Positions 12,847-50,458 of a DNA stretch of 64,000 bases are shown piece by piece (within the stretch, counting starts at the first letter, position 1; each line of letters begins with the position of its first letter). Made by a program: the position numbers and the translations under genes. The DNA comes from a virus, in the IMG/VR virus record IMGVR_UViG_3300031576_000013, positions 30,809 through 94,808 of that record. One strand, given 5' to 3'. The notes under the pieces were generated by a model that ran no database searches, was not told the DNA's origin, and was given only the letters and a program-made list of their open reading frames with translations.

Positions 12847-12872
12847 GTTCGCTTTCTCCGTTTCCTGTGCGG

Positions 12873-13802
12873 TTAGACGCCGAAGACGCCAGTTGCCTTG
12901 ACCACTGCGGGCTCGTGCATGTACTTCACGTCAAGCCGCAGCGAGACGACCGTGATCACCTGACCCGCCGAGATGTCCTCGCCCATGCGGACGCGAACCT
13001 GACGATGGAACCCGAGGACGAAGTTCTTCGGGTCCGCAAGCAAGACGACGGTTTCGTTCGTACCGGCGCCGAGCGCGTCTGGAAACTCCGGGACGCCGAC
13101 GACGTCGTAGTCCTGGTACTTCGCGTCGGCTTGCGTTGCCAGCTGGATGTCGCCAAGGCTCGTCGCGCGGTTCGCGAGAGAGTCCTTGTAGTCGACTTTT
13201 GCCTGACGGTTCGTGAAGTAGGTGAGCGGCCCGGTCGAGAACTCGTCGGGCAGCGTCTTCAGCATGTCGCGGAGCACGTTCTTGGAGAGCGTGACACCGC
13301 CAGCCACAACGACGTTCGTGACTGCGTGCTTGATGAAACCGTCGAGTACCGCGAGGAGCGCGTCCGCCGACAGGGTGTCACCTTGCGCGATCAGGAAGTC
13401 CACGTCGCGAGCCACGGCTTCCGCCAGGGTCTCTGTGATCGTGTCCTTGTACGAACCGCGCTCGATCTGATCCTCGAGCACCTCGTCCGAGATCCGAACC
13501 TCGGCCTTCACGAGCTTTGCGTCGAGCTCGATGAAGCTGAGATCGGGCCTTGAACGCTGCGCCACCGCGAGGGCCTCGTTCTCCACGCCCGGCTTGAGCA
13601 CGCGCGAGCCGAAACGATGCTTGTCGCGTCGCTCCTTCGGACTCGCCATCGGTGTGACCATGATCCGCTTCATCAGTTCTGCGGATTTGATCATCACTCG
13701 GAAGAAGCGATCCGCCTGCCTCGGAACGAGCAAGCCACCGGCGGCAAGGCCGGCTGTGTCGAGATCTGCCTTTTGCAGCAAGACCCTGTTGTCGGTTGGC
13801 AT
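12873..13802 (-). CDS. Major capsid protein, HK97 fold
   Basis: A 309-aa protein with the pattern of HK97-fold capsid subunits lacking a long delta domain. It has an N-terminal arm, LVPRQADRFFRVMIKSAELMKRI, then SFIELDAKLVKAEVRISDEVLEDQIERGSYKDTITETLAEAVARDVDFLIAQGD as the spine-helix region, and A-domain strands near the C-terminus (TVVLLADPKNFVLGFHRQVRV). The ribosome site is AGAGGAG. Scaffold and protease genes lie immediately upstream and the decoration-like gene downstream, the standard order. Confidence 0.88.
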   Translation of the reverse strand: MPTDNRVLLQKADLDTAGLAAGGLLVPRQADRFFRVMIKSAELMKRIMVTPMASPKERRDKHRFGSRVLKPGVENEALAVAQRSRPDLSFIELDAKLVKAEVRISDEVLEDQIERGSYKDTITETLAEAVARDVDFLIAQGDTLSADALLAVLDGFIKHAVTNVVVAGGVTLSKNVLRDMLKTLPDEFSTGPLTYFTNRQAKVDYKDSLANRATSLGDIQLATQADAKYQDYDVVGVPEFPDALGAGTNETVVLLADPKNFVLGFHRQVRVRMGEDISAGQVITVVSLRLDVKYMHEPAVVKATGVFGV

Positions 13803-13876
13803 CTTTTTGCGCTCCTCTAGGACGGTTGATTTACCGTGAAAACTGCTGACCTCGACCTGTTCGTAATTTCACGCAA

Positions 13877-18100: not shown

Positions 18101-19725
18101 CCTTCGATTTCGAGCCAAATCGGCGGCTGTAGGGACTTCACGGCGGCGAACACGCGATTCGGCGCGTTCATTGGTTTATTCCAGTACGAGCCCTCCATGT
18201 TGAAGGTGACTGCGAGTCGTTTGCCTTCAGGTACGGTGTCTACATCAGGCACTTTTCCTGCGCGCTGGATCGCAAGCGTGAAACCCGTGAGGAAATCCTC
18301 GCCGGTCTTGACACGGAAATCTCCGTGAACCGACCGACCTCTGAAATGACTCTGGAATACGGCCGCGCGGGGTTCTTCCTTTTCGGGATAGATCAGGATT
18401 GGGTTCTGCTGCTTCTCGGCGTCTTCGTCGCGCATATCGACGACGCGTTTTTCGGCGACGGGATGGACGACGAGATCGTAGAGATCTACGTAGCTCGTGT
18501 ATGGACCGCAGCCACCGGTATCTGGATCGGAGTCGTCATGGAATTGAACTCGCTGCGAAATCTCCGGCGGTAGCATCCGACCGAGCCTGAACTTCAAAAC
18601 TTGCAGTGTCTTCTCATCAAGTGGTCCGTCGATGAGCACGTCGACGTCGTTCTTCGTTTCGCCGTTGTTCACGATCGAACCGACTAATCGAACGACCGGT
18701 GCGCGAATCAGGAAGGGCTTCTCGAAGTGTTTGAGAACTTCTTCGAGTTTGAGTGGCGGGTATTCGCCCGTCGATCCCGGATGGATCGGAGCATATCGAT
18801 CGGTCTTGCCCGCCTTCGAAATATCATCGGTTTCTTTGGTACGTGCCACGCCTGAAGGTCCAATCACGAGGGGCTTCCTGCGGCGAAGCCGACGCAGTTC
18901 GGCTTCGATTCCGAGTGGGTCTTCCACCTTGTCGACCAGCGCGCGAGCTTCGCGCGTCAGCTCGTCGTCAAAGGGGTGTTTCAAATCGCGCCGTGTGAAT
19001 TCTTCGATCATGAACGCTTCAGCGTTCACCAGATCTTCGCGGCCAACGCCTTCCGCCGACAGCTTGTCGTTACCAGCGAAAAGGCTTGCGAACGCGGCGT
19101 GCAATTCCCTGTCGAGCCGCTTGAGTTTTGCGTCATCGAAAGCCTTCAGGTTGCGAGGCGTGATCTCCGTCAGGTCGAACGTTGCGTGTTGACCCGGAAC
19201 CGTGTCCAGATCTGCCGTGGTCAGATCGCCCTCACCTTTTGCGACCGCCTCTTCTTCGAGATCGATCTCGGGGCCGTATCGCCGCCCGGGCGGTGTCTTC
19301 TTCAGCTCGATCGGAGGATCGAAAGCCCGAACCAGCTCCATCGGGATGTAGAACACCGGCTTGACCGGTTCGAACTCGGCCAGCGAGAACTTGTCGATCC
19401 CCTCACGCAGCTCCTTCGGGACGTCGTCGAGCGACGCGAACTCCTGCGGCTCTCGTAGAACCACGATCGCCCAGGCGAAGGTCGCCTTGGCCTCTGTCGG
19501 CTCGATCTCGTTTAGCAAGATCTGCGCTTCTCCGCTGCGTCCCTCTTGCTTGCGTCGAGACAGGACGCCTGCGCTCTTGTCCTCTTGAAGCCGTGCGACG
19601 AGCATTGGCGGGTCCGGCATCTTCAATACCGGCAGTGGGCCTGCCGGCATTTCGAACTTGCGCTGCTCTTCTGGGTTCCCCGGCAAGGGAACGACCGCCT
19701 CAACGTGGGCGTTCGGGGTCGACAT
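15181..19725 (-). CDS. 1514-aa fusion: nucleotidyltransferase-like, LigD-PE-like, ATP-dependent DNA ligase, XkdF-like prohead protease
   Basis: Segments in order. At about 325-420 there is a nucleotidyltransferase-like region with VGSIVNNGETKNDVDVLI (hGS...DxDhL). At about 455-580 there is a region like the LigD 3'-phosphoesterase, with H460, H467, D469 and R471 in SHFRGRSVHGDFRV followed by KRLAVTF. At about 985-1175 lies an ATP-dependent ligase adenylation core: motif I EPKLNGFR (K995, with N where D is usual), LDAE at 1047-1050, EGAMLK at 1148-1153 and WAKIKL at 1168-1172. An OB-like region follows to about 1265. At about 1325-1350 there is a Cys/His helical segment, and at 1385-1514 an XkdF-like (Peptidase_S78_2) domain with LGIVLEPETVDAQNDVYSSDEIRKAA shortened in places, MHR and the candidate nucleophile S1492 in GWSIGG. 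The gene sits between portal and scaffold, the protease position. A dispersed repeat lies at codons 15-20. The protein may be cut by its own protease domain; this is inferred. Confidence 0.8.
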   Translation of the reverse strand: MSTPNAHVEAVVPLPGNPEEQRKFEMPAGPLPVLKMPDPPMLVARLQEDKSAGVLSRRKQEGRSGEAQILLNEIEPTEAKATFAWAIVVLREPQEFASLDDVPKELREGIDKFSLAEFEPVKPVFYIPMELVRAFDPPIELKKTPPGRRYGPEIDLEEEAVAKGEGDLTTADLDTVPGQHATFDLTEITPRNLKAFDDAKLKRLDRELHAAFASLFAGNDKLSAEGVGREDLVNAEAFMIEEFTRRDLKHPFDDELTREARALVDKVEDPLGIEAELRRLRRRKPLVIGPSGVARTKETDDISKAGKTDRYAPIHPGSTGEYPPLKLEEVLKHFEKPFLIRAPVVRLVGSIVNNGETKNDVDVLIDGPLDEKTLQVLKFRLGRMLPPEISQRVQFHDDSDPDTGGCGPYTSYVDLYDLVVHPVAEKRVVDMRDEDAEKQQNPILIYPEKEEPRAAVFQSHFRGRSVHGDFRVKTGEDFLTGFTLAIQRAGKVPDVDTVPEGKRLAVTFNMEGSYWNKPMNAPNRVFAAVKSLQPPIWLEIEGRKFEAGEVGATAEEEGVIVRIARPQVTHLILKPFFAEYAVEGDQKFHGLLTFRLLVGRGDASEEEVETGRRTREGEAFWVAMFNKDLTPSVLRRRAIATKTLPPKGRSALPLGIKNAIPPEFRYWEKDKPSEVEATRNALIEAHLVTAETVQINRDFRLTLKTKKFWPSADIAPEIVEARTVEEAMDRIAATIATENATRLLKQLKAAPYTLTWQRFKGQVVIRAAPSSQVFHLFIKRGENEIEDFQLEGDPFENDKIAVIRRALTNVEADKLLAYEGDAPPGEKVHGVEFNPSKNTPSQMRILSRGKIEFLDDQRQFKKIRVRGGDLADVSDDGVFVLVAEEEAGDLWQWERGKQPSRAVPGEKITKAHEVRDVSLQDGTVIEDVQIWDPRKIKDADDKGGDRKELKPLAVFKPMKVAARKTNEFRGGELDRLHEDFATGALLDSGILVEPKLNGFRVALQKDGDRVFIITEEFFSRKTEQRNYMKNWPGVTAELAKLPGPFVLDAEFMEFVDGAATPRRDLARFRGTGVVDDANVQLQIFDALYLPDEGNITQKDQAERRRLLEAFLNKRQSSRIKLVPALGTARTHESLDSLIAKAAASPGSEGAMLKSANATYSLGGESDGWAKIKLIREVRGIVYDKHPVKDSPGVFNYFYAFGPIPEKEQGNWPNLIELAGKKYAPAGKSFNSKVKAESGDVLRIEVTEVLFNRMTAGKWKITGFTPTVIDVTDEAPMTVNEVVAMLNPDEIKKRASEPPPPLWDLGCQLQAKVSVEIEKPFAGFANFEACVADQKTRGHDEEAAHRICDALRRDYEKIVEKEATSSSTPVSKLELRPWTHAVKLFKAEETAKEERYVLGIVLEPETVDAQNDVYSSDEIRKAAHGFMERYGHIGLMHRKLIDGRVKILESYLAPLDFTVAEQPVKKGTWLLAARIVDDELWEAVKRGEFTGWSIGGTAIKEADPVYSILAAPFVT
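19666..19681 (-). repeat. Dispersed repeat, N-terminal codons of the 1514-aa gene
   Basis: The minus strand reads GGGGAACCCAGAAGAG, 43 nt into the gene, translated as GNPEE. Same frame as the other sense coding copies. Confidence 0.8.
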
Positions 19726-36910: not shown

Positions 36911-39900
36911 TCACGAAACCTTCTCCCAGTTGCGAGCAATAGAAGCGTCGGCCAACAACCAAACGTGCCCTGCGGGGCCTTCGACTTTGTGCCGCATCTT
37001 CTCCTCGACCATCGACCTGATTGCCGGCGCATCCGACTCACGGCACTCGACGACGATCTGATCATGCACATTGAGGATAATATGCGCGTCGCTGTACTTG
37101 CGACGAAGTTCATCGTCAATTGCGAGCATTGACAGATTCTGGTAATCGCCTGCCGGAAATTGTATCGAATTTCCGGTGACGTACGTTCGCCCTGCGCGTC
37201 GTGCAACAAAATACCCGTTGGGAACCGATGGGCACCACAAACTTGCCTTCGCATTTTTGAAGTATCTGACGGTGTTTGGCATTAGCTGCGCTCGAGTGCG
37301 TTTGTACACGTGAACGTAATAAGCGCATCTGGATTTCGGTACGTTCGGCATTTTTTTGGATTTGAGTACGTACTTTCGAAAGTCGACCTTACGTATAGAG
37401 GCGGCTTCATTGCATAATATACAGAGTGTTTGGAACATATCTGCTTTTGCTTTTGTTCCGGCACAAAAGACAACAGCGCCACCGCACCTGGTACCGTCAC
37501 CATCTATCATTGTTTCTTTGAGCAGTCTCAATTGACTCGTCGTTAACCGCAGTAAAAAGTCGAATGTTAATATTCGATCCGGGAAGATTGTCCCTAACAT
37601 TCGCGCGGTTGGCCCAGTGAAGCGCCAGATTTTGTGAACCTTGTTTCTGTAACTTACGTACGCATTGACGAACGGACGCAAGCGGACAAATAACTCATCG
37701 ATGCGACCTGCTTTCTCCGGGTTAGCTTCTTCGCTTTGAAAAAGACTAATGTAGGTACGTCCTGAGTTCGGATGGCCGATGTAGCCATCTGTTAACGTCC
37801 ACGCAGCCAGCTCGACAAAGTCATCGCTGTACGTCTTTAACTCAGCACCAGGGTAGATACCGGTCCGGTGAATGCGATCATTACCCCAGTGCGATAATTC
37901 GGCCGATGTCTTGCAAACGCTACGCTCATACAACGTATCAACTAGCCAACGATGGTTGGGTGTCGTAACCGCTGACATTGTCTTAGTTTCGAAGCGGTAT
38001 AGTGGGCCTCTGTATTTCGGAAAACGATGGATTGCTGTTGGCTTTTGCCATTCGAGCGCGCCAGTAATGTGGTTCTTCGTTAGCAAGTAGTCGTCCGGCT
38101 TCAGGTTTGGACCAGCAACCCAACCTCTGAGTGTGAGAGCCTCTGTTTTGTCGTCAACGCAGTTGTTACTTGATAATGTTATCTCGACCGGCAATACCGC
38201 ATGGTAACGGCGGCGGCCAATTGGCGGCACTTCTTGGTAACCAAGACGATTCGTACGTTCCCACTCCTGTTCACAGAACATGCCAATCTCCGGGAACGCA
38301 CGGTCGAAATTTTTGCAGATTTCCTTGACGAAGCCGAGCGTTAAAGTTGCACGAATCGAAGCCGGCGTGTCCAGGTGCTCCATGATCTTCCCGTAGATCG
38401 TTTCGGCCTTCGCCCGGTAGTTCCGCGCGTAGACGCTGCGCTTAGTCAAAAAGCGGAGGTCGATCCACGCTTGACTTTTCTTCTCGAGCTTCGTGAATTG
38501 TTCGCCGAAGAAATCGGCGGCTGTCTCATTATGAACGTCGCGGCTCGGATCGTTGAAGATTTCGACCAGTTTCTTACAGCCGGCGCGGGCCGCCATGATG
38601 CGGTGTTCGATAGCTTTGGAATCGGCGCCCACGAGGACGCGCCCTTCACGTGTCTGAACGATGGCGCGAAGCATCTTGGGCCAGTTTTGAATCGACGGCT
38701 GTTCACTCGACCAACGCGAACCGACAGTCCCCGTGCTCTTCCAGTGAATATGGAGACGCCCATACTTATCCACGAGATCCGGCAATTTCGCGATAAAGGT
38801 CGAAACCAGCTTCGCGTTTTTGTCGAAATCGACCAAGGCTCGGATGACTTCGTTCCCGAGATGGGGAACCAAAGCAGCGGCGCTCGTAGAGGGTAAGGAC
38901 TTCTTAGTCGTGTAGACTTTTACGGGCAACGCGAGTCGCGCGTACAAAAGTTCGGATCGATGGCTCGGTTTACGGGGATCGAAATCTGGCCACGCCATCG
39001 TGCTCCGAACGAACGCGAGTGCGGCGTCGCGTTTCTGGATTAAACGCGCTTCGACTTCACGACGCTTGTCTTCGCCGATCGGAATTCCATATCTGCCCAT
39101 GCGCGCGGACAGTTCTGCGAGCTGAGTGTCCATCTGTGCGACGTGGCCTTGCTCGATCTCGGTCACTCGTTGCATGAGGATCGGCAACAGTTCTTGAGTC
39201 GCCAGCGCGTCGCGAGCGTTGTACGAAACGAGATTTGCGAGCGCGGCTTGTTTCTTCCTCTGCAACGCCTTGAAGTCGGCTTTCCAGGCCGCGATGTCGA
39301 GGAACTGGTGCGATACGAACCCGAGATTATGATCCTGTTCGGGATCTGTGATGTGGTGGAGCACGAGGTTGTCGTAATAGGCGCCGCCAAGTGGCATTCC
39401 ATACCGATACAGGACTTCGATATCATAAGCCATATTGTGGAAAATCTTCGGGTTCGGCCCTCCCATGACGGCCCGAGTCGCTTCCAGAAGGCGCCGTGTC
39501 TCGTTTTCGCCGATGGTCCCATCAGCGATGAACGACAACGCTTCGTTGGACGGCCAAAATGAAATCCCGACGGCATGTAAGCCGCAACTGTATTGGTCGA
39601 GGGCGTCCCGCTTGCCAACACCATAAGTCTCCGTGTCGATCGCGGCCGGCTTGCCTGCCTTGAAATTCTCCCAGATCCAATTCACGGCCCAATCGACCGA
39701 CACGTTCCCACCACCTGCCGGCAAGATCGTATAAATGCGCTCCGCGCGGTGCCAACCATCTTCCGCGATGCGCGCTGCGCGTTTCAAGTCTGTTACGACT
39801 ACTTCGTAATAGTGATTTGCTCCGCGCAACAGGAATGCCGGGTGCAAGGTCGGGATCAGAAGGGTCTTGGGGCTTGTCCAACCGCTCCCCTGTTCTGGGA

Positions 39901-39934
39901 TCTCGGATGCCGATACGGCTAACGCAGAGTTCAC
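36911..39934 (-). CDS. DNA polymerase I with 3'-5' exonuclease, interrupted by an intein; N-terminus carries the end of the glycosylase
   Basis: A 1007-aa precursor (676 aa without intein). Residues 1-60 do not belong to a polymerase: LIPTLHPAFLLRG matches motif B and the end of family-4 uracil-DNA glycosylase, continuing the upstream gene. Exonuclease motifs follow: D100/E102 in IDTETYG, N167/D171 in HNMAYD, Y238/D242 in YNARD. Polymerase motif A is D438 in GADSKAIEHR. Motif B is R494, K498, Y502, Y506, with Tyr where E. coli has Phe. Motif C is HDQ at 957-959 instead of HDE. The intein interrupts the conserved N.(P)IQ segment. The start is GTG, overlapping the upstream TGA (GTGA), with a GATAAGG site. 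A diverged dispersed repeat lies at codons 11-16. Confidence 0.88.
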   Translation of the reverse strand: MNSALAVSASEIPEQGSGWTSPKTLLIPTLHPAFLLRGANHYYEVVVTDLKRAARIAEDGWHRAERIYTILPAGGGNVSVDWAVNWIWENFKAGKPAAIDTETYGVGKRDALDQYSCGLHAVGISFWPSNEALSFIADGTIGENETRRLLEATRAVMGGPNPKIFHNMAYDIEVLYRYGMPLGGAYYDNLVLHHITDPEQDHNLGFVSHQFLDIAAWKADFKALQRKKQAALANLVSYNARDALATQELLPILMQRVTEIEQGHVAQMDTQLAELSARMGRYGIPIGEDKRREVEARLIQKRDAALAFVRSTMAWPDFDPRKPSHRSELLYARLALPVKVYTTKKSLPSTSAAALVPHLGNEVIRALVDFDKNAKLVSTFIAKLPDLVDKYGRLHIHWKSTGTVGSRWSSEQPSIQNWPKMLRAIVQTREGRVLVGADSKAIEHRIMAARAGCKKLVEIFNDPSRDVHNETAADFFGEQFTKLEKKSQAWIDLRFLTKRSVYARNYRAKAETIYGKIMEHLDTPASIRATLTLGFVKEICKNFDRAFPEIGMFCEQEWERTNRLGYQEVPPIGRRRYHAVLPVEITLSSNNCVDDKTEALTLRGWVAGPNLKPDDYLLTKNHITGALEWQKPTAIHRFPKYRGPLYRFETKTMSAVTTPNHRWLVDTLYERSVCKTSAELSHWGNDRIHRTGIYPGAELKTYSDDFVELAAWTLTDGYIGHPNSGRTYISLFQSEEANPEKAGRIDELFVRLRPFVNAYVSYRNKVHKIWRFTGPTARMLGTIFPDRILTFDFLLRLTTSQLRLLKETMIDGDGTRCGGAVVFCAGTKAKADMFQTLCILCNEAASIRKVDFRKYVLKSKKMPNVPKSRCAYYVHVYKRTRAQLMPNTVRYFKNAKASLWCPSVPNGYFVARRAGRTYVTGNSIQFPAGDYQNLSMLAIDDELRRKYSDAHIILNVHDQIVVECRESDAPAIRSMVEEKMRHKVEGPAGHVWLLADASIARNWEKVS
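37169..38161 (-). mobile_element. Intein with LAGLIDADG endonuclease in DNA polymerase I
   Basis: Residues 592-922 of the precursor (331 aa). It begins with Cys (CVDDKTEALTLRGW), has a block-B-like TTPNH, two LAGLIDADG motifs (AAWTLTDGYIG and LKETMIDGDGT) and ends YVTGN before a Ser. The penultimate residue is Gly, not the usual His. Removal joins SSNN to SIQFPAGD, restoring the conserved polymerase segment. The DNA is visibly more AT-rich than the extein. Confidence 0.9.
39885..39904 (-). repeat. Dispersed repeat at the start of the polymerase gene
   Basis: The minus strand reads GAGATCCCAGAACAGGGGAG, 30 nt into the gene, translated EIPEQG in the common frame. It sits exactly where the glycosylase C-terminal segment is displaced from its parent domain. 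Confidence 0.6.
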
Positions 39935-41514
39935 GACGCGGCCTTATCTTCTGTGATCGGTGCTATATCGATCTCGTGAATTGCGCCTCGACGTTCCATG
40001 ATCTTGGCGTTCGTGTCGTACAGAGAGCGCAATGCGACCGCGCCAAGGCCCACCACGACTCGCGGTTTGACAATCGCGAGTTCGTTGATCAAACGTGTAC
40101 GGCAATGTTGCGCAGATAGTTTGACGACTTGATCGGGGTTGAGTTGGACACCGTTATGGGTGAGCGTTCGGGGCTTGCAGTTGTGAACAATTCCAGCCAT
40201 CGTTACGAAATTACCCGTTTCTGCGACGTCTATGCAGTAGACGACTCCGTTTGGGCGTCTTGGTGTTGATTTAATGGTAGCTGCTCGATCCCAGTAGGTA
40301 GTCGGTGGCGTAGGTAAATACGCTTCTTTGTCAAATTTACCCCGTAGATTTGATGGCAATTTATAATCTAGATCAGGTGGGATAAATTTAGCGAGCGATT
40401 CTAAAAGTCGTTGAGTGCCGTTAGCCGTAAATGCTATGCGCCACCCGTGACCTTGACGTAAGTGACATTCAAAACCCTTATCGTTAACTAATTTGGACAG
40501 CCAAGCGACGTCGCTCTGGGAAAATGCGCATGTCGCGATTTCTGCAAGTGGGCGTCTGGTTTCCCTTAAACATGTGTACCCATCGTCGCAGAACCATACC
40601 GCGAGACCCAAAATGTCAAGATGATTTAAATATTGTTTGGCTGCATTCGATATTCCTTTGATGCCGTTGGGATAGAAAGCGGTGCGCATCGTTGCAATCC
40701 ATCGTGAAGCGTGAGTGGATACCCGTGTTTGATGCTGAATGTTGTTAACTCCAGGAGGCAGTTCGCTTATAGTGGGCATTAACGGACTAAGCGATTTAGC
40801 TTTCAATAGCGCATAAGACCGTTGATCATTCGCATGTGCAAACACCAAAGCCGATCTGTTCTTTGGGATGCAGGCGGCTCCTAACAAGGTACCAATAAAA
40901 ACTTGCAAACTACGTCCTTGTAAAGCGATTTGTCCGGTGGCGATTAGTTCACCATCAATGTCTCCAGCAGGAACCCATCCGTGAGGTGTCAAAAAAGGAT
41001 GGTCGACAGTGAAGCTTCCGGCCGAAATGCCTTTATCGCCAGCCAGTCGAGCGCTGCTAAAGTTTATCCGACACATTTCGCGCCCATTAAGATGGTTTCG
41101 ATACCATCCTGTGATCAAACTGGAACTAAGCGTGCCGTCTGATTTTAACGTCTTGACAGGTCCGCGAAGTTGTTTTGCTACAATTTCATTTATTCGACAT
41201 CTAGAGCCGTCACTCATACGAATTTGAGTCGTACCTTCGACACACAGAGCCGAATTCGATACCCATACTTCTGACCGAATGATCCCCGCGTCGGCCAGCA
41301 TCCGATTCAAATGCTGCCCCGCTGCGCCTACGAACGGCCGTAGTTCTTGCTCCTCGTTGTAGCCGGGGCCTTCGCCGATGATCGCGAGCTTCGCGCGAGG
41401 GTTTCCTTCGGGCGGTACAATCTTTGCGCCCTGTAAAGGACAGCCCGTGCAGTCGGGAATCGCAAGCAGCCCTCGATAAAATGGAAGGGCAACATCGTCA
41501 GGTGTGTCTTGCAC
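39931..41514 (-). CDS. Family-4 uracil-DNA glycosylase, C-terminally split, interrupted by an intein
   Basis: A 527-aa precursor. Fe-S ligands C22 and C25 (DCTGCPL), motif A GEGPGYNEEQELRPFVGAAG, then the third Fe-S Cys and the fourth in AQHCRTRL (C471) are visible, followed by VVVGLGAVALRSL and an RGAIHE segment. The protein stops there; the expected motif B (P.LHPA.LLR) is at the N-terminus of the next gene, in the -1 frame. The intein lies immediately before the third Fe-S Cys (C446). It removes uracil from DNA. Start GTG at 41514. Glycosylase domains fused to phage polymerases are known, so this looks like a split fusion. Confidence 0.82.
   Translation of the reverse strand: MQDTPDDVALPFYRGLLAIPDCTGCPLQGAKIVPPEGNPRAKLAIIGEGPGYNEEQELRPFVGAAGQHLNRMLADAGIIRSEVWVSNSALCVEGTTQIRMSDGSRCRINEIVAKQLRGPVKTLKSDGTLSSSLITGWYRNHLNGREMCRINFSSARLAGDKGISAGSFTVDHPFLTPHGWVPAGDIDGELIATGQIALQGRSLQVFIGTLLGAACIPKNRSALVFAHANDQRSYALLKAKSLSPLMPTISELPPGVNNIQHQTRVSTHASRWIATMRTAFYPNGIKGISNAAKQYLNHLDILGLAVWFCDDGYTCLRETRRPLAEIATCAFSQSDVAWLSKLVNDKGFECHLRQGHGWRIAFTANGTQRLLESLAKFIPPDLDYKLPSNLRGKFDKEAYLPTPPTTYWDRAATIKSTPRRPNGVVYCIDVAETGNFVTMAGIVHNCKPRTLTHNGVQLNPDQVVKLSAQHCRTRLINELAIVKPRVVVGLGAVALRSLYDTNAKIMERRGAIHEIDIAPITEDKAAS
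40180..41244 (-). mobile_element. Intein in the uracil-DNA glycosylase
   Basis: Residues 91-445 (355 aa). It begins CVEGTTQIRM, has block B VDHPF, a first LAGLIDADG-like motif lacking its acidic residue (FIGTLLGAACI), a second motif LGLAVWFCDDGY, and ends GIVHN before Cys. Excision joins NSAL to CKPR. The first endonuclease motif looks inactive, while the splicing residues (Cys1, His-Asn, Cys+1) are intact. Confidence 0.88.
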
Positions 41515-41628
41515 AGTAAACCTATTCGTGCCGTCGCTCGAGCATCGACCCGAGACGCGCGCCTTTAAATACGCAGGCGACGGCCACCCCGATTACAAGC
41601 TCGGGGTCAGCTTGAGGTACTTCCTAGA

Positions 41629-42246
41629 CTACTTCGCGCCGAACGGCTTCGCGGGCGGTGGCGCAGGCGCCATCGGACCGGGAACACCGGGGTAAGCCCC
41701 CAGCCCGGCTACCGGCGGGGGTGCGAATCCCGGCAGGTAACCTGGCGGGTAAGCCCCCGGCGGGTAGCCTGGCGCATAACCGGCCGGATGCCCGAAACCG
41801 GCAGGTTGAGGCGCAACGAATGCGCCCGGCTTGGCGGCTGCGGAAGCGCCGTTCCCTTCAACGGCGTCTTCGCTTCCGACACGGTTCACGTTCTTGCCCT
41901 GGTAGTCTTCGACCGACAGACTCGCCGAGACCATACACCCGATCAGGTGTTCATCCTCGACGACGTTCCACTGTTCCTTGGGGATTCGACACGCGTTCAG
42001 CAAGCGGGCGATACGAAAGCCTGCTTGCTGCTGGAGCGAATAGGACGCGATGATCTTCTTCCCCGAGAACTCCTGTGACACCCCCGGACCGGTGACGATC
42101 TCGAATTCGACCGTCTCCTTCAACTCGCCCGAGCTTCTGGCAGCTTCCTGACGAGCACCCACGATTCGCAGAATGTAGCGCCCCGGCGGATAGACGGGGA
42201 ACTGTCGGTCTTCGATTTTCGAAAAGTCCACTGGAAAACGAGGCAT
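41629..42246 (-). CDS. DUF669-like protein, probable single-strand DNA-binding accessory
   Basis: A 205-aa protein. Residues 1-125 (PPGRYILRIVGARQEA, ETVEFEIVTGPGVS, KIIASYSLQQQAGFRIARLLNAC, LIGCMVSASLSVEDYQG) resemble the phage DUF669/OB-type proteins that accompany recombination ATPases. The last 65 residues are a disordered Pro/Gly/Tyr tail with repeats of the form (A/P)GYxPG. It lies next to the RecA-fold ATPase, as in phages where this pair works in recombination. Confidence 0.68.
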   Translation of the reverse strand: MPRFPVDFSKIEDRQFPVYPPGRYILRIVGARQEAARSSGELKETVEFEIVTGPGVSQEFSGKKIIASYSLQQQAGFRIARLLNACRIPKEQWNVVEDEHLIGCMVSASLSVEDYQGKNVNRVGSEDAVEGNGASAAAKPGAFVAPQPAGFGHPAGYAPGYPPGAYPPGYLPGFAPPPVAGLGAYPGVPGPMAPAPPPAKPFGAK

Positions 42247-42293
42247 GGTTGATCTCCTTGCACGATGACTGTTGCATCTATAAGCGGAAAGCC

Positions 42294-44345
42294 TTATGCG
42301 ATTCCGCCCGGCGCAACGGGTAAGTTAGGCTGTTGGTGTTCCGAATTATTCTGTTGCGGTACTGGATTAATATAAGCTGCCGGATCTTCGCCAATGAACG
42401 GCCCGATACGGTGCGCAATAAAAGCGAAATGCGCCGGTATTGTGCCATCAGCAAAAGCAGCGCCGAATCTTCCTCCGGCCGGCGCCCCGTCAGCTGTCAC
42501 CGTTCGTAGCATGAACTGCGACACCAATTGACCTTGTTCCGTTCGTACCTGTTGCACGACCGATCTCATGATTAGATCGCACGAACCAGGCAATTTGGAA
42601 CTCGTGTTATGACAAACTATGCCATTCGCTACGAAGTTGTGCGTTCCAGGTATGGTTAGATCGAAAACCTCGCGTTCACCACCATCCCGAATTTGTTTGA
42701 TCGGAACGAACACGAATTCAGCAGATGCCTTAAGCATGAAAGTTATGTCTTCGTCGTAGGTTGCTAGTAAAGCCAACCTCTCAACGGTTCGCGTGTTCAT
42801 GTTTTGAACACCGGCGGTGTACGTTCGAAGTTCAAGCGTAGAACCGTCGAGCAGGCGCACCCGTTTTTGGGAGCGGTTCAACGCAGTGGTGAGTAGGCTT
42901 CGAGCCCACACCCGCTTGAGTCGTGCTGCTTGATGCGGCAAACTTTCTTTGCCTCGGTCAAGTGACTCTTTCGCCACTGCGATTTGTAGCCGGTCAGCCT
43001 TCATTTTGTTGTGTAAGAAGCCTATTTCTTTTGCGAAAATACGCAGCGCTCGGCCGCTAATAGACAAGCGCCAATAGGATTTGTCCCCGATAACTTTACG
43101 AAATAGCGACGCGTGGACGCCAAAGTTCCTTAGAACGGTTTGGACGTCGTACGCCATACTCTCAGACGCTGTGGACCATTCGATCTGCCCGACTGCTTTG
43201 TTGCAAAAGCCGTCGGTATCGAACAGGCCACGGATGAACATCGCAACGGATTCTCGGGGCGCGTTAAGGACGCTGGTCGGGAACACTTTACCAGCCGCTC
43301 GGCTGTATTTAACGCCGAGATCGGCGATGCGCGCCCGGATCTGTTTCGAGTAAATACCGTGAATATCGGCTAATTTGCCAGTCGTTTTCGGCTGATATCC
43401 AAAGTGCTTGTGAAAATATTCCTTGAAGGCTTGTACTACGCCGTCTTGGCGACGACAGAGTTTGATCGCGCGTTCTTGTGTTACAACACCGTCGCCTGTG
43501 ATCACTCCTAGAATATATGCGATCTCGGGATCTAGAGGCTGCGACCCCCACAAATTGGTAGCGCGGGGTAGAGCGACGTAGTCGCCTTTGTTCAAATTTC
43601 TTATTTCACGGAACTCAAGATCCCCGCTTTCGTTCATCACAAGGATGGGGTGCTCGGGCGTGCCGATCAACCGACTCTCGTCGACAAGTATAGCTTCAAG
43701 GGTTCGGCTCTTTCCCATTGGTAGATGGGCGGCAACAGCGCAGTTCTCGAAGCGATCTGTATCCCACGCAGTTATTTTGGCTCCTAACAGCGTCTTATCG
43801 GCCATTCGACGAAAACCGCAACTACTCGCAACGAGAGATTGCGCATCTAGACATTTTCCGTAGAGCATTGCTTTGTAGCCGACAACTTGGCCTTCCGGTC
43901 CTCTGTCCGATTCCTCCAGAGCGATCCAAACGACGTGCATCGGAACGTTGCGGAGGGTAGGTAGAAGCCACTTCTGCAAGTGCAAATCGAGCATACCCCA
44001 ATCACGCTGTCGCATCGGCCGCGTTCCATCTGTTGTCAGCTCCTGCAAAAAGATGTCGCTGTAATACGTGATGGAGTCGACTACGATCGTCCGCCAACCA
44101 TATCTGTCGCGATTTTTGGCGATGTAGTCAATTGCTTCCTTCATGTCTTGGCTACGGCCAATGGGTATTACGTCAGCGTTGCAGAAGCGAAGGGTGGTGT
44201 CGCCGCCTTCATTTCCGGCTGATAGAAACACCGGTTTCGGGAACGTGCTGGCCACCGTAGTCTTTCCGGAGCGCAGTGCTCCGTATATAAACGTGTGCAA
44301 AGGTTTGGGCGGCATCTGTTGTGAATTGATGACTTGAATTGCCAT
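42294..44345 (-). CDS. RecA-fold (Sak4-like) ATPase interrupted by an intein
   Basis: A 683-aa precursor (267 aa without intein). Walker A is YGALRSGKTT (residues 21-30), Walker B TIVVDS (86-91), then WIALEE with an acidic cap and KAMLYGK, where the intein is inserted. The C-extein begins TSSKLPGSCDLIM. The size and order match the Sak4-type single-strand annealing/RecA-like phage ATPases. The C-terminus is Gln/Asn/Pro-rich. Neighbours are the DUF669-like protein and the exonuclease, so it is probably part of a phage recombination system. Confidence 0.82.
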   Translation of the reverse strand: MAIQVINSQQMPPKPLHTFIYGALRSGKTTVASTFPKPVFLSAGNEGGDTTLRFCNADVIPIGRSQDMKEAIDYIAKNRDRYGWRTIVVDSITYYSDIFLQELTTDGTRPMRQRDWGMLDLHLQKWLLPTLRNVPMHVVWIALEESDRGPEGQVVGYKAMLYGKCLDAQSLVASSCGFRRMADKTLLGAKITAWDTDRFENCAVAAHLPMGKSRTLEAILVDESRLIGTPEHPILVMNESGDLEFREIRNLNKGDYVALPRATNLWGSQPLDPEIAYILGVITGDGVVTQERAIKLCRRQDGVVQAFKEYFHKHFGYQPKTTGKLADIHGIYSKQIRARIADLGVKYSRAAGKVFPTSVLNAPRESVAMFIRGLFDTDGFCNKAVGQIEWSTASESMAYDVQTVLRNFGVHASLFRKVIGDKSYWRLSISGRALRIFAKEIGFLHNKMKADRLQIAVAKESLDRGKESLPHQAARLKRVWARSLLTTALNRSQKRVRLLDGSTLELRTYTAGVQNMNTRTVERLALLATYDEDITFMLKASAEFVFVPIKQIRDGGEREVFDLTIPGTHNFVANGIVCHNTSSKLPGSCDLIMRSVVQQVRTEQGQLVSQFMLRTVTADGAPAGGRFGAAFADGTIPAHFAFIAHRIGPFIGEDPAAYINPVPQQNNSEHQQPNLPVAPGGIA
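42606..43853 (-). mobile_element. Intein with LAGLIDADG endonuclease in the RecA-fold ATPase
   Basis: Residues 165-580 (416 aa, the largest of the five). Starts CLDAQSLVASSCG, block B GTPEHPIL, LAGLIDADG motifs AYILGVITGDGVV and FIRGLFDTDGF both intact, block F FDLTIPGTHNFVANG, ends IVCHN before Thr. Excision joins LYGK to TSSKLPG. Confidence 0.92.
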
Positions 44346-44357
44346 TGTGATTTCCTC

Positions 44358-46397
44358 TCATTTCGCAGAGGGTTGAGTCCACGGTGCTATGTCGTAAAGG
44401 TTACTGGCCGTACCGTGCGACGAACAGTAATCATGGAATTTACACACTCCGTAGCCACGCGGGTTCTTGCACACCGCGAAGTTCATCGGCCAACGAGTTT
44501 CCTCCTTTGAATCGGCGGCCACTTTGTCTTCAAGCCTGTGAACGACGGGCTGAAGCGTCTCCGCAAAGCGCTTCACATCTTCGGGAGAGATTACGACTTC
44601 GAGCCGGCGACATTCGGGGGTCGCCGTCTTCGTAATGATGTTGATGATGAATCCGTTCAGCGGCCCGAAGACGCGATCAAGGGCGAGTTGCCACCAGATC
44701 CACGCCATGAGCAGGAACTGGCCGTCCATCCCATAACCGTCAACGACGTCGCGTGTGATACGGGCGAGGCAATTATGTGTGATTAAATCGGCTACAATAA
44801 ATGTATGTGTATCCGCGACCGTAAAATCAAAACAGGTTTCTGACGGTAAAATCATTACGTATTTGACTGCGTCTTCATAAATACCGTCAACCACTTTGGG
44901 TTGTTTGCCCATTGTTCTGAGCGATGTTTGGACGCGCAAAGCTTCGATTGCAGCGTCGTACAAGCGCGGTACGGGAATAATCTTTGCAATAACCTGGTTG
45001 AGGAATTCGATCTTGGATTGGCGCCCGACGATTGCTATTTGAGTGTAGGGAACGCGTTTACCTCTATAAGCAACGGTTGACCGTTGTAAAGTTGAAACGA
45101 AACCAATACGCGTGAGTAAGTGCTGCACCTGCAACGCCAGCAGTTCCGACGTAGTTGTATAGGCAATTCTTATCTTTACGCGCCCTTTCTCTGCGATTGA
45201 ATAAATCGCGCCATCACCGGACCACAGCATTCCGATTAGATTCTTGACCAAATCAGATGGCCCATCGAGATATTCATCCGGAATGCGTTTGACCTTAGCG
45301 TGTCGGCCAATAACGTTGGTTGGTGGTAGGATTTTTTGCGTAAACGATGTGACGACAAACTTATCTGGTCGTACATACGTTGACATTCTTCCGCCAAGAA
45401 ATTTGATGTCCGAGTGAATCTGCGCATTGTGTTTGGCGTCGTGCTTACCAATCATTAGCACGCGGGTTCCCACGCATCCGTCGCTAATATATGCACCCAA
45501 CAATCTGGCACGAGCGAGCATTTCTAACGAACTGTGTTGATTCTCAAACGAATCGTGGCACGCGATGCTAACGCGATCTCGATCCGTTACGGCTTCGCAA
45601 GGGATGTACCCTCGTTGCGTTCTAATCGGATGATTTAAACCTAGCCTAAATTGTCTGCCGCTGATTGTCTCGATTAGGACGATTGGTTTGGCTGGTATTT
45701 CGTAGCCGGCAACGATAGGCTTATAAACGTACTCGCGCTTTGCGTCGTCGAAGCTTTCGGCTTCGACAGTCTGTTTATTTTTAATGCGCTTGAAAATTTC
45801 TGCGGCGGTCATCATTCCACCACGTATCCGAATCCGGGCTGATCCTGGAACACATTTATGGTCAACTATATATACGCCGTCTTGGCACGGCCCATATGGC
45901 GCGGGCTGCGCATCTGCGGCCTTCTTTCGAATCAGCAAATCGATTCGAGACGAAATCGGCCCGCCGTCGTTCGTTGACAGGCCGGCATTACCGACTATTT
46001 CGTGCTCGACTGCACGGATGTCCCATGTTTTCGCGTCTTCTTCGCCGTACTTGGCGAAGTAAGCATTCAGCAATCGAGTGACTTCGGCAGCAAGCTCAGG
46101 CACTTCGTCTTTGATTGCGAGGATCGGCTCCCAAGTTTTAATGCCGCCCGATGAAAAATGCGCAGCGAGACACGCGTGCGCGAGTGTCCCAATGTCAAGC
46201 GCAGGCGAGTTCTTACGCTGGCGAAGTTTCTTGATCGATTCGAGAAAGTACATGCGCTCGCAAATCATGAAGGATGAGATCTTCGACCAGCCGCGAACTG
46301 AAGGACCGCCGAGGTACTCGGCGGCCAATTTGCGTCCAAGCAAGTCCGCGACGTGTGGGCGCACGACGAACAGATCGGCGGGTACAATCTTACTCAT
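44358..46397 (-). CDS. Cas4/AddB-like PD-(D/E)XK nuclease with Fe-S cluster, interrupted by an intein
   Basis: A 679-aa precursor from the ATG at 46397; a GTG at 46412 would add five residues. N-extein: YLGGPSVRGWSKISSFMICERMYF with the first Fe-S Cys, IGTLAHACLAAHF with the His of the RecB motif, SSRIDLLI (Asp), and IVDHK (catalytic Lys), after which the intein begins. C-extein: CLARITRDV through CKNPRGYGVCKFHDYC with three more Cys. Four Cys in this layout define the Fe-S RecB/AddB/Cas4 exonuclease group. It probably resects DNA ends for the RecA-fold ATPase next door. Its start overlaps the SNF2 gene stop. Confidence 0.85.
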   Translation of the reverse strand: MSKIVPADLFVVRPHVADLLGRKLAAEYLGGPSVRGWSKISSFMICERMYFLESIKKLRQRKNSPALDIGTLAHACLAAHFSSGGIKTWEPILAIKDEVPELAAEVTRLLNAYFAKYGEEDAKTWDIRAVEHEIVGNAGLSTNDGGPISSRIDLLIRKKAADAQPAPYGPCQDGVYIVDHKCVPGSARIRIRGGMMTAAEIFKRIKNKQTVEAESFDDAKREYVYKPIVAGYEIPAKPIVLIETISGRQFRLGLNHPIRTQRGYIPCEAVTDRDRVSIACHDSFENQHSSLEMLARARLLGAYISDGCVGTRVLMIGKHDAKHNAQIHSDIKFLGGRMSTYVRPDKFVVTSFTQKILPPTNVIGRHAKVKRIPDEYLDGPSDLVKNLIGMLWSGDGAIYSIAEKGRVKIRIAYTTTSELLALQVQHLLTRIGFVSTLQRSTVAYRGKRVPYTQIAIVGRQSKIEFLNQVIAKIIPVPRLYDAAIEALRVQTSLRTMGKQPKVVDGIYEDAVKYVMILPSETCFDFTVADTHTFIVADLITHNCLARITRDVVDGYGMDGQFLLMAWIWWQLALDRVFGPLNGFIINIITKTATPECRRLEVVISPEDVKRFAETLQPVVHRLEDKVAADSKEETRWPMNFAVCKNPRGYGVCKFHDYCSSHGTASNLYDIAPWTQPSAK
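44772..45854 (-). mobile_element. Intein with LAGLIDADG endonuclease in the PD-(D/E)XK nuclease
   Basis: 361 aa. Begins CVPGSARIRIRGG, block B GLNHPIRT, LAGLIDADG motifs LLGAYISDGCV and LIGMLWSGDGA both intact, block F CFDFTVADTHTFIVAD, ends LITHN before Cys. Excision joins IVDHK to CLAR, so the insertion point directly follows the catalytic Lys. Confidence 0.92.
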
Positions 46398-48087
46398 CGA
46401 TCCCGTACCCACCCGCGTCGATCATCGCGGTTACTTGATTCACAAAACTGCTTAGATCGTCGTCCGGCATTTTTGTTGACAAGGTTTTCACGAACTCGCC
46501 GGTGTCCGACACGATACCGACACTCTCAATCGCTTCGGCTTTGGTGAAAAGCGCTGTAATCAAATCTTCGTCGACGGTGTTTTCCGCGACGAGATATTGT
46601 ACGTGCACCGGTTTGATTTGTCCGGATCTGTGGAGGCGCCCTTCGGCTTGGAGTAAAACCGACGGCTTCCAGTACAAATCAGCGATGATCAACTCTTGGC
46701 AGGTAGCCAGCTGATTGATCGACTCGGACGCCGCAGCGAGCGTCGATACGAACGCAGCCGGTGATGTAACAGGTTCGGCCGCGAACGCGGTAGCGCAATC
46801 AATCCGCTTTTCTATACTGTCTTCTCCAGTTATGGGGCCGAATACGGTAACGCCACCCGCTTTCAAAGCTTTGGCGATTTCGCGGGCCGAGTTCTTAAAC
46901 CATGCGAATACAACGACCTTGCCGGCAGTTTTCGCGGCGGTTTCGGCAAGTTCGACGGCTATGTCGCGTTTTACACGCGACAAAATGCCGAGCATCGTTG
47001 TCAACTGAACGAGCCGCTCACCTGTGATACCGTTGACCAACCCGCGACCTTCGCTTTTCAAGAAGGCGCGTATGTCCAGCTCTGCGGCTTTGTATTTCGC
47101 GTATTCGTTTTGGTCGGCCTCATCGAGTTCCACGTTGATATGCTGGCGTGTAAGCGCCGGTAATTCAGCCATCACTTCATCTTTTGTGCGCCGGATCATC
47201 ACATCGGCAAGACGCAGCTTGAGCTCTTCGTTGTGCGATTCTCCCGCGTACGTCCAGCCGTATTCGCCATGCATACCGTTACAATAACGAAGTCCGAAGC
47301 TGTGGCGGTCGCCGAACGAATAAGGCTCGGCAAGATCGAGGAGCGCCCAAAGCTCTATACGCTTGTTTCGTACTGGCGTCGCCGTCAAAACGATCCGCTT
47401 CTCGACAGAAGCCAGTCGCGCGATGGATGATGCGGCTCGCCCGCGTCTTGTCTTCGGCGTTGCGTGATGCGCTTCGTCAAAGATCACGATCTTGGGGCGC
47501 AACTTGGTGAAGATCCAGGGCATCCACGCTTCGAGTATGTCGTAATGGCAAAAGAACCAACCGTCGTTTGGTTCATCAAAGACTTCACCGCTCGCATTCC
47601 TGCGCGAAGTTAGCGGCTTGACCTCGATGCCGTACCATTTCTTTGGTTCGCTAGCCGGACCGCACCAAACCCCGCGCGACAGCAGCGTTCCCACAACGAT
47701 GACAGGCTTCAAGCGTGTGCTGGTCGCTGTCGTCAACGCTTCGAGGCTTTTACCTAGTCCGAGATCGTCTGCATTGATCGTTCCGGCGCGAGCGTACATG
47801 AAGTCGAAAGCGTCCCATTGATACTGGCGCAATTGCGGTGCGTAGCTTCGGTCCGGACTGTCACCAGGAGATCGTTCGAACACAATCTCGGCATCGTTCA
47901 TTACGTGGACGAGACTTCGGTGTAAATACAAGATGCGGTTCTTCTCGTATGCGCCGGGGAGTACCTTAACACGCGGTACATCTTCGTCGTCACAATTGAC
48001 GAGGTAGTACCAATCAGGCCGCTCCGACTTAGCGACTTGTATCTTCGAGCGAGCTGGGGCCATCTGGCCCGACGATCCGGGTGCCAC
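46390..48087 (-). CDS. SNF2-family (SMARCAL1-like) helicase/translocase
   Basis: A 565-aa protein. Motif I DDLGLGKSLEA, motif II DEAHHA, motif III TATPVRNKRIELW, motif V/VI region SESINQLATCQELIIADLYW shortened here, and QAEGRLHRSGQ are all present in order. It is a compact dsDNA translocase that may remodel forks or recombination intermediates. The start is GTG at 48087, supported by AAGGAG nine bases upstream. An ATG at 48063 is an alternative. The start codon lies inside one arm of a 12-bp inverted repeat shared with the dnaB leader. Confidence 0.85.
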   Translation of the reverse strand: MAPGSSGQMAPARSKIQVAKSERPDWYYLVNCDDEDVPRVKVLPGAYEKNRILYLHRSLVHVMNDAEIVFERSPGDSPDRSYAPQLRQYQWDAFDFMYARAGTINADDLGLGKSLEALTTATSTRLKPVIVVGTLLSRGVWCGPASEPKKWYGIEVKPLTSRRNASGEVFDEPNDGWFFCHYDILEAWMPWIFTKLRPKIVIFDEAHHATPKTRRGRAASSIARLASVEKRIVLTATPVRNKRIELWALLDLAEPYSFGDRHSFGLRYCNGMHGEYGWTYAGESHNEELKLRLADVMIRRTKDEVMAELPALTRQHINVELDEADQNEYAKYKAAELDIRAFLKSEGRGLVNGITGERLVQLTTMLGILSRVKRDIAVELAETAAKTAGKVVVFAWFKNSAREIAKALKAGGVTVFGPITGEDSIEKRIDCATAFAAEPVTSPAAFVSTLAAASESINQLATCQELIIADLYWKPSVLLQAEGRLHRSGQIKPVHVQYLVAENTVDEDLITALFTKAEAIESVGIVSDTGEFVKTLSTKMPDDDLSSFVNQVTAMIDAGGYGIDE

Positions 48088-48220
48088 GTCCAGGTTCTCC
48101 TTGTATCACATGGGGCTCTTCGCCGTCAAGATCCCCTTGCGGTGTGGAGCGAAAAAGTGTACCCTTCCTCTTCCTGGACGTGGCGTCGATGGTACGTCCA
48201 TCGACGGCTTGGAGGTACTC
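48081..48220. promoter_or_regulatory. Divergent control region between SNF2 helicase and dnaB, with inverted repeats
   Basis: GCCACGTCCAGG at 48083-48094 is repeated in inverse form as CCTGGACGTGGC at 48173-48184. A third copy (GTGCCACGTCCAG) lies at 50731-50743 on the other side of dnaB. Immediately after the second copy, GTCGATGG (48185-48192) and CCATCGAC (48198-48205) form a perfect 8-bp hairpin with a 5-nt loop, ending 5 nt before the dnaB ribosome site. Only a weak plus-strand promoter (TTGCGG, 17 nt, TACCCT at 48160-48165) is seen. Operator or mRNA hairpin function is inferred. Confidence 0.5.
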
Positions 48221-50458
48221 GTGTCTACGAACGGCACCTCAGACGAACACCCGATCGCATTAGCCGACGAGCCATCTGACTCGCCGCCCAACGAGCAGGC
48301 GGTACCGACGCAGTTCACCCCGGAGCCTCCTCTCGAACCCTCGACGTGGCTTCCGCCGGACGTCGCGGCCATCTGGGCTAGCCGCGTCAAGCTACCGTAC
48401 ATCCCGACGTTCTCGGACAAGATCAATAAGTGCATCGGCGGTGGCTTGCGAGCGACGGGAACCTACGTTTGTACCGGTGGACCTGGCGTTGGAAAAGCTC
48501 AGCCACTCGATGCAAAAGTTCTAACACCGCGCGGCTTCGTTCCTATCGGGGCTATCCGCGTCGGCGACGACGTAATCGGCGTCGATGGCAAACCGCATGT
48601 AGTAATTGGGGTTTTTCCTCAAGGAAAAAGAGAAGTCTTCCGCGTCGTGACGTCTGATAAGCGCGCGACCGAGACTTGCGCGGATCATTTGTGGTTTACG
48701 AGAACACGTAGTGACGTTCGTGAAGGACGGCCGGGGCAAGTACGGACCCTCTCGGAGATTCGTAAACAGCTCGTGATCGGAAATGATCGCCTAAATCATC
48801 GACTGCCACAAATTGCGCCTGTTCACTTCGAAGCCGATCCGATTTTGCCACTTCATCCTTACGTTTTAGGGGCATTGTTAGGAGACGGTTGTTTGAAAGC
48901 ACGGCGCTTTACCAATCCAGAAACAGATATTCGTGATCGTGTCGCGAATTTTTTGCCTGTCGAAGACGAAATGGGCGAAGTCCTTGTCGATGGGATGACC
49001 TGCCAAATACGCAAACGTGTTCGTACAAATCTTATACGATCTAAGACACATTCAGCACTATGTACTTTGGGGCTCGAGTCTGCAAACGCGTATAATAAAT
49101 TCATTCCAGCGGTCTATCTAACCGCGAGCATTGAAGACAGACTCGAAGTTCTTCGCGGACTATTCGATACTGACGGCCACGTCGATAAAGATCACGTCGA
49201 ATATGCGTCAGCATCACCTAGATTGCGTGATGACGTTGTCTTCCTTGTAAGATCGCTGGGTGGCATCGCGACATTAGATGAACGCGTGCCACATTTTTCA
49301 TACAAAGGTGAACGCCGTGCTGGGGCGATTTCATATCGCGCGATAATTCACTTCAACAATGACGTAGTGCCTATTGCTTCATTGAAGCACAATGCAAAAT
49401 GGCGAGTTAATCACCATCAGAGTCATGTTAAAATTGCTGAAATAACCCTGATTGGCAAGAAAGAGTGCGTTTGCATCGCAATAGATAGCGTCGACCGGCT
49501 ATATATAACCGACGACTTTATTCCCACACACAACTCCACGATGGCCCTCGACGTTGCTGACGCTGCCATCCAACATGGTTTCCCCGTTATCTACGTAAGT
49601 TCGGAACTGACTTCTCAACTTCTTCTTGCGCGTTTCGCCGCGAAGAAACTTGGCGCCGGTTGGCTGGAGATGATCGACTCCGACGATCCGAAGCTGACCG
49701 AAACCAGCGAGGCCCTTTTTCAATCTGTTCGCCGGCATTTATGGGTCTTGGACCCAGAGCAGGCGCAGCAGTTTCCGTTATACGTTCGCGAGATCCGTAG
49801 TCGTCTGAGTCGTGAAGTCGGATACCAGGTGATGCCTTTGGTGATCATCGATTATATCCAAGATCTCGCTCAGCCTCGTGTTTCGCGCGGAAAAGATCAC
49901 CGCACGGCGGTAGGAGAAATCTCACGAGAGCTGCGTATGATGGCTGAACGCGAATTCCTGCCGATTTGGATTGTATCGTCCACGAGCCGGTCTTTCTACG
50001 CGAACGCCGAAGAAACTGATGACTCGATGTTGATCGCGTCCGCTAAAGAAAGTGGCGAAGTCGAATACAATGTGAACGCTTTGTTTCACGTACGCCGGCG
50101 CGATACGGGGTCTAAGAAGAACTTAGAACTGATGATCGTGAAAAACAGGTTCGGTGAAAATCCCGTGTCTGTCGTGTTCGGTTTTAACCCGAAGACCGGT
50201 GCGATGTTCCAGACTTCGCAGACCGGCGAACAGCTCGCGCTCGAGAGCTTGAAGGCACAAGTTTACGAGCTGATCAAGCTGCATCCGGGCAAATTCACGT
50301 CTGCGAAACAGATCGCCGCCACCCTCGGCGTCAAATTAGCTGTCGCCAAATTCACCTTGGATTCTCTCGAAACCGATCCATACCAAAAAATCACGGCAAA
50401 CAAGGACGGTCTTACAGGTTATTTCGTCACAGACGACGCGCCTGAAATTTTTAGCTGA
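48221..50458 (+). CDS. dnaB: DnaB-type replicative helicase interrupted by a class 3 intein
   Basis: A 745-aa precursor (399 aa without intein). The intein sits in Walker A: GGPGVGK, then STMALDVADAA. Downstream blocks are YVSSELTSQLLLARF, VIIDYIQDLAQPR (Walker B), EISRELRMMAEREFLPIW, and RRDTG...MIVKNRFG. The DnaB N-terminal domain is absent. The last 65 residues look like a winged helix (LHPGKFTSAKQIAATLGV). It is the only plus-strand gene of the replication module. The GTG start at 48221 is chosen for its GGAGGT site. Longer in-frame starts upstream are not supported. Confidence 0.87.
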   Translation: MSTNGTSDEHPIALADEPSDSPPNEQAVPTQFTPEPPLEPSTWLPPDVAAIWASRVKLPYIPTFSDKINKCIGGGLRATGTYVCTGGPGVGKAQPLDAKVLTPRGFVPIGAIRVGDDVIGVDGKPHVVIGVFPQGKREVFRVVTSDKRATETCADHLWFTRTRSDVREGRPGQVRTLSEIRKQLVIGNDRLNHRLPQIAPVHFEADPILPLHPYVLGALLGDGCLKARRFTNPETDIRDRVANFLPVEDEMGEVLVDGMTCQIRKRVRTNLIRSKTHSALCTLGLESANAYNKFIPAVYLTASIEDRLEVLRGLFDTDGHVDKDHVEYASASPRLRDDVVFLVRSLGGIATLDERVPHFSYKGERRAGAISYRAIIHFNNDVVPIASLKHNAKWRVNHHQSHVKIAEITLIGKKECVCIAIDSVDRLYITDDFIPTHNSTMALDVADAAIQHGFPVIYVSSELTSQLLLARFAAKKLGAGWLEMIDSDDPKLTETSEALFQSVRRHLWVLDPEQAQQFPLYVREIRSRLSREVGYQVMPLVIIDYIQDLAQPRVSRGKDHRTAVGEISRELRMMAEREFLPIWIVSSTSRSFYANAEETDDSMLIASAKESGEVEYNVNALFHVRRRDTGSKKNLELMIVKNRFGENPVSVVFGFNPKTGAMFQTSQTGEQLALESLKAQVYELIKLHPGKFTSAKQIAATLGVKLAVAKFTLDSLETDPYQKITANKDGLTGYFVTDDAPEIFS
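48497..49534 (+). mobile_element. Class 3-type intein with LAGLIDADG endonuclease in the DnaB P-loop
   Basis: 346 aa. The first residue is Ala (AQPLDAKVLTPRGF), so the standard N-terminal acyl shift is impossible. The class 3 triplet is visible: Trp in block B (ADHLW), Cys in block F (KKECVCIAID) and Thr in block G (PTHN), with Ser as +1. Endonuclease motifs are LGALLGDGCL and LRGLFDTDGHV, both intact. Excision joins GPGVGK to ST. Phage DnaB P-loop inteins of class 3 are known from mycobacteriophages. Confidence 0.9.

Follow-up and report, generated by a model that had tools for sequence, protein, structure and literature searches.

Phages with several inteins have been described, and the literature maxima found were the cluster C1 mycobacteriophage ET08, which has five or more inteins in a genome of ~155 kb (PMC3029335), and the crAss-like Zeta phages, with up to three inteins per genome (PMC7886860). 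Class 3 inteins have been defined by the lack of an N-terminal nucleophile combined with Trp at B:12, Cys at F:4, and Thr at G:5 (PMC3196547). The record analyzed here is a 94,808-bp (94.8-kb) uncultivated phage that is linear and possibly incomplete, of which the window (the whole analyzed stretch of 64,000 nucleotides) covers record positions 30809-94808. Like ET08, it has five intein-bearing genes in one phage, but the ET08 inteins are dispersed over 155 kb with no more than three per ~13-kb stretch.

Each of five ORFs between positions 36911 and 50458 was interrupted by a single long insert, in frame and bounded by intein end motifs (Table 1); the ORFs coded for PolA, a family-4 uracil-DNA glycosylase (UDG), a Sak4-like recombinase, a PD-(D/E)XK nuclease, and a DnaB-like helicase. 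The inteins ranged from 331 to 416 aa, summing to 5,427 bp in a stretch of 12,366 bp (12.4 kb), with no stops and the reading frame kept throughout. All five had the block B His, the C-terminal Asn, and a +1 Cys/Ser/Thr, as well as a Cys at residue 1 or F:4 as splicing nucleophile. The ORFs, boundaries, and splice residues bore out the preliminary description of five inteins in five genes, as did the conserved motif interrupted in each gene for the claim that they sit at functional cores. The insertion sites are already known or of the usual kind. Intein or LAGLIDADG models (Pfam/NCBIfam) matched every intein except that of PolA, for which no Pfam model matched, and the Hint fold of the other four was supported by sequence matches to intein families or intein structures. 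No further inteins were detected elsewhere in the record with Intein_splicing, LAGLIDADG_3, BLAST with the five inteins, and the PolA-type profile, a search that a very divergent mini-intein could escape.

Table 1. Features of the intein-bearing module, with positions in the window; a slash marks a splice junction.
Feature	Position	Strand	Evidence or motif
PolA precursor (3'-5' exonuclease and family A polymerase), 1007 aa, with intein	36911..39934	-	Pfam DNA_pol_A 1.5e-40, exo1 8.9e-11
PolA intein, 331 aa	37169..38161	-	NN/C1...TGN/S
C-terminal UDG motif (PTLHPAFLLRG...), within PolA ORF start	39758..39862	-	51% over 37 aa to Moorella phage UDG C-terminus
UDG (family 4/UdgX-like) N-terminal part, 527-aa precursor with intein	39931..41514	-	Pfam UDG 4e-16, NCBIfam UDG_fam4
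UDG intein, 355 aa	40180..41244	-	L/C1...VHN/C; LAGLIDADG_2 1.3e-19, Intein_splicing 2.9e-4
Small intein-free ORF	41629..42246	-	Weak phrog_3724 match, phrog of unknown function
Sak4-like RecA-fold recombinase precursor, 683 aa, with intein	42294..44345	-	AAA_24 2.7e-14; phrog_124 Sak4-like 1.7e-21
Sak4 intein, 416 aa	42606..43853	-	GK/C1...CHN/T; Intein_splicing 2.8e-17, LAGLIDADG_3 5.1e-18
PD-(D/E)XK (Cas4/RecB-like) nuclease precursor, 684 aa, with intein	44358..46412	-	PDDEXK_1 1.3e-6; phrog_1218 exonuclease; intein-free homologues
Nuclease intein, 361 aa	44772..45854	-	DHK/C1...THN/C; intein_Nterm 4.8e-5, LAGLIDADG_3 3.2e-13
SNF2-type helicase, intein-free, in same operon	46390..48087	-	Pfam SNF2-rel_dom 4.7e-20; no intein model
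DnaB-like replicative helicase precursor, 785 aa, intein in P-loop	48101..50458	+	DnaB_C 1.5e-15
DnaB intein, 346 aa, class 3 by motif	48497..49534	+	GK/A1...THN/S; PDB DnaB and gp41-1 inteins matched

Among 161 comparison loci (IMG/VR and related), which were chosen for holding an intein and so are not a random sample, 140 had one intein-bearing ORF, 20 had two, one had three, and none had five. Five intein hosts near each other is therefore the extreme of what was seen, and to this extent the earlier statement that few modules are this dense stands. The density itself is matched by the one locus with three intein-bearing ORFs, L222 (IMG/VR contig 3300005663_002624), which likewise holds five inteins in 12.0 kb (2825-14864), of PolA-, UDG-, and class 3 types, and the idea that the present cluster outranks every other in density was abandoned for this reason. 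The L222 inteins differ in occupying three host genes (portal with two, TerL with two, and a P-loop ATPase with one) instead of five replication genes, and one of its TerL inteins is at Walker B FFDE/C. IMG/VR single-protein scans with the Sak4, PolA, and UDG proteins gave no matches.

The five inserts are very probably separately acquired selfish inteins that homed via their LAGLIDADG endonucleases into conserved DNA-metabolism motifs and now excise themselves. Homing, past or present, would have proceeded by endonuclease-driven gene conversion during co-infection, inserting each intein into a strongly conserved motif, and accumulation in one cluster may reflect the frequent exchange of the replication module between co-infecting phages. 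Each intein would then be synthesized as an in-frame part of its host protein, from which it would excise itself while ligating the exteins into active enzyme, with the UDG, Sak4, and nuclease inteins predicted to splice by the class 1 route, the DnaB intein by class 3 in which the F:4 Cys attacks first, and the PolA intein by either. The preliminary description gave all five inteins Hint ends and LAGLIDADG blocks; the ends held for all of them and both LAGLIDADG catalytic acids were kept in four of the endonucleases (PolA, Sak4, nuclease, and DnaB), which are apparently intact, while that of UDG lacks the first LAGLIDADG Asp. The comparison yielded no near relative of the phage whose sites are empty, so homing may or may not be recent; the TerL relatives share structural genes and have a different replication module.

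Retention of the five inteins because conditional splicing, such as redox or metal control, times or pauses replication is unlikely, even though H2O2 reversibly blocks an M. smegmatis class 3 intein located at this DnaB P-loop position (PMC6195587), all five inteins have a catalytic Cys (Cys1 or F:4), and each interrupts a conserved functional motif. Several nearby replication genes are intein-free, including those for SNF2-, UvrD-, and ResIII-type helicases, a primase-like ORF, and the ORF at 41629-42246, for which position and length suggest a candidate single-strand-binding protein. With adjacent helicases and the primase-like ORF free of inteins, the suggestion that the entire replication apparatus requires splicing was overstated. 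The recombination modules of MW202477 and MW202455 have similar content (SNF2 helicase, PD-(D/E)XK nuclease, Sak4-like ATPase, and PolA or UDG-PolA), but their compared genes are intein-free, so that inteins are not required for module function. The mostly intact endonucleases are what selfish spread requires, and no regulatory feature was seen in the sequence. By analogy with the M. smegmatis intein, conditional splicing, put forward in the preliminary description as a possible control point, is a possible benefit to the phage. Elsewhere in the window, a 1514-aa ORF (15181-19725, - strand) combines two fused parts, an ATP-dependent DNA ligase domain (aa ~988-1172) and a prohead protease of XkdF type (aa 1388-1499), while the protease ORF in structural relatives is only ~347 aa and has no ligase match.

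The DnaB intein splits the P-loop GVGK/S, as judged from the motif and the DnaB_C match. It is not a standard Cys1 intein: it begins with Ala1, having neither Cys1 nor Ser1, and carries the Trp-Cys-Thr triplet at B:12, F:4, and G:5 (HLW with W66 at 48692-48694, Cys326 at 49472-49474, and T344 at 49526-49528), so that it is class 3 on motif grounds. It ends in THN with a +1 Ser and keeps both LAGLIDADG Asp residues. A1, H64, W66, C326, T344, H345, and N346 were unchanged across 23 aligned sequences, and all 22 inspected IMG/VR relatives had Ala after the Lys and ended in HN/S or HN/T. These relatives lie nearly all in P-loops of various ATPases, with some hosts Sak4-like by eye, and the TerL of L125:7235-11188 has two class 3 inteins simultaneously (Ala1...THN/S). 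The DnaB class 3 inteins of M. smegmatis (DnaBi1; PMC6195587) and mycobacteriophage Bethlehem share Ala1, the triplet, and the THN end, and DnaBi1 occupies the same P-loop GK/S site but is a mini-intein, whereas the intein here carries an endonuclease.

The PolA intein combines Cys1 with the class 3 triplet. Its N-terminal part has the block B TPNHRW and W72 (37946-37948), its C-terminal part has the F:4 Cys310 (37232-37234), T329 (37175-37177), and a TGN end followed by a +1 Ser, and its LAGLIDADG acids are D125 and D222. The AlphaFold2 model from a 59-member alignment of relatives had a mean pLDDT of 95.1 (the single-sequence prediction had a pLDDT of only 32), and its best PDB matches in Foldseek were the endonuclease-bearing inteins TliVMA, PI-PfuI, and PI-SceI. 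In the family alignment, Cys310 and Gly330 were conserved in 59/59 members, Thr329 in 57/59, and Trp72 in 32/59, along with Cys1 in 59/59, partly owing to the search pattern CVD..TE that selected for Cys1. The profile also matched AceL NrdHF, a class 3 split intein, and placed the ET08 gp3 intein in the same family (E 1e-44). As Cys1 is present, the PolA intein was not filed as class 3 and is a mixed-motif intein that could splice by either the class 1 or the class 3 route; its penultimate residue is Gly, and the missing penultimate His leaves splicing efficiency uncertain. The PolA-type does not constitute a new class because a Cys at F:4 has already been described in class 1 inteins (PMC3196547). 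Loci L126-L205 form a large viral family of Cys1/F:4-Cys inteins ending in Thr-Gly-Asn in many host genes including PolA, one of them in a Streptomyces echinoruber contig. The Pfam intein model detected just six of the 59 family members, meaning that viral inteins are undercounted by standard Pfam screens. It is improbable that the family is a living class 1/class 3 intermediate and that the replication module here, by bringing one of its members together with a true class 3 intein, is a set of splicing switches firing at different rates or to different stresses.

The remaining three inteins all have Cys1, lack the Trp-Cys-Thr triplet, and are read as class 1 from these residues. The Sak4 intein has TPEH, a VFDL block F, CHN, and a +1 Thr, and retains both LAGLIDADG Asp. 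The preliminary description placed it beside a conserved Gly-Lys of a RecA-fold ATPase; the GK/T site stood, with the correction that this GK/T is outside the P-loop. Its relatives in Cyrano RecA and G019 TerL occupy P-loop GK/T motifs, and the Sak4 intein may be an ectopic landing on a look-alike second GK/T. In the structural relatives G019 (L117:7416-10193) and G020, TerL carries a separate P-loop intein, a relative of the one in Sak4.

The nuclease intein is inserted immediately after the catalytic Lys and has a CFDF block F, THN, a +1 Cys, and both LAGLIDADG Asp, while block B is GLNH with Gly in place of Thr, making its splicing efficiency uncertain. An intein follows the catalytic Lys at the same site in the ET08 gp202 RecB/Cas4-like nuclease (ELK/, read from sequence) and its family has been described (PMC5050341), but it is class 3-like and related to the DnaB intein here, not to the nuclease intein.

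The UDG intein has TVDH, VHN, a +1 Cys, and Cys337 at F:4 but neither the Trp nor the Thr of the class 3 triplet. A full-length relative with 25% identity is found in the T5-like DNA polymerase of SelmaRatti and Gostya9, a different host gene, in which the first LAGLIDADG Asp is intact. The UDG-intein endonuclease (LAGLIDADG_2) is probably dead because LLGAACI replaces the LFGDGAL of this relative with loss of the first catalytic Asp, while the splicing residues are retained. The UDG domain is itself divided, as the UDG stop overlaps the GTG start of PolA (GTGA at 39931-39934) and the first ~60 aa of the PolA ORF are a C-terminal UDG piece with the His-Pro motif (blastp to UDG and UDG-polymerase fusions). 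Taken together, the two ORFs matched a single UDG-polymerase protein (residues 27-164 and 165-794 of ctfzr933) and by these matches are a split UDG-polymerase fusion, in contrast to MW202455 and KX853510, where UDG and polymerase are a single protein (one ORF in MW202455). A programmed frameshift between them was rejected, as visual inspection of the 13-nt overlap revealed no slippery heptamer.

The degraded UDG endonuclease, the divided UDG domain, and the absent block B Thr of the nuclease intein could also be read as some of the five having decayed into non-splicing inteins that leave pseudogenes, as known for the phage-type intein Arth_1007 (PMC3196547). This is quite unlikely given the essential splicing residues and open frames of all five. 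Moreover, inteins commonly lose the endonuclease while splicing is kept.

The separate acquisition of the five inteins, as first proposed, was upheld by each resembling outside inteins more closely than its four neighbors and by differing composition. Matches among the five were absent or weak, the best (E 2e-9) being between Sak4 and DnaB inside the endonuclease. The closest outside relatives were in a viral PolA for the PolA intein (46% identity, with exteins just 23% identical), another virus for the DnaB intein (49% identity), a phage RecA intein for Sak4 (E 3e-29), and the T5-like polymerase intein for UDG (E 6e-25); that of the nuclease intein had E 1e-11. The PolA, UDG, nuclease, and DnaB inteins are compositionally foreign, with GC3 of 0.51, 0.40, 0.47, and 0.43, respectively, versus 0.60-0.66 in their exteins; a GC3 ≤0.51 was found in one of 160 comparable windows of other genes and none was as low as the UDG, nuclease, and DnaB inteins. 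The Sak4 intein did not differ from its extein (0.54 versus 0.56). A single intein copied across five genes of the phage, for which the distant LAGLIDADG_3 similarity among the Sak4, DnaB, and nuclease inteins (E 2e-9 and 3e-4) could speak, is very unlikely given the nearer relatives of each in other viruses and the differences in splicing class, composition, and endonuclease family (LAGLIDADG_2 in UDG).

Alignment of in silico spliced exteins with intein-free homologues, the check proposed for the junctions, was flush at four sites: PolA NN/SIQ versus NYPIQ, NWPIQ, and NSPVQ; UDG SNSAL/CKP versus TNIAKCRP; Sak4 GK/TSSKLPG versus GKAQMWLPG; and nuclease VDHK/CLAR versus MDHK/TCK. Spliced UDG also matched the Thermus UDG (PDB 1ui0; 1.2e-22) through the junction, where the +1 Cys is presumably the expected Fe-S ligand. 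That the inserts are native enzyme domains, a reading for which being in frame without stops would also fit, is ruled out for practical purposes by these flush alignments, the matches to intein/LAGLIDADG models and folds, and the relatives of the inserts in unrelated host genes.

The locus is an unusually dense, though not unique, pile-up of a known type of selfish element. In one phage, five proteins of replication and repair are each expected to require splicing, with differing splicing signatures, and the locus offers a test bed for intein crowding as selfish accumulation versus regulation, and for a possible dependence of splicing class on the insertion site.
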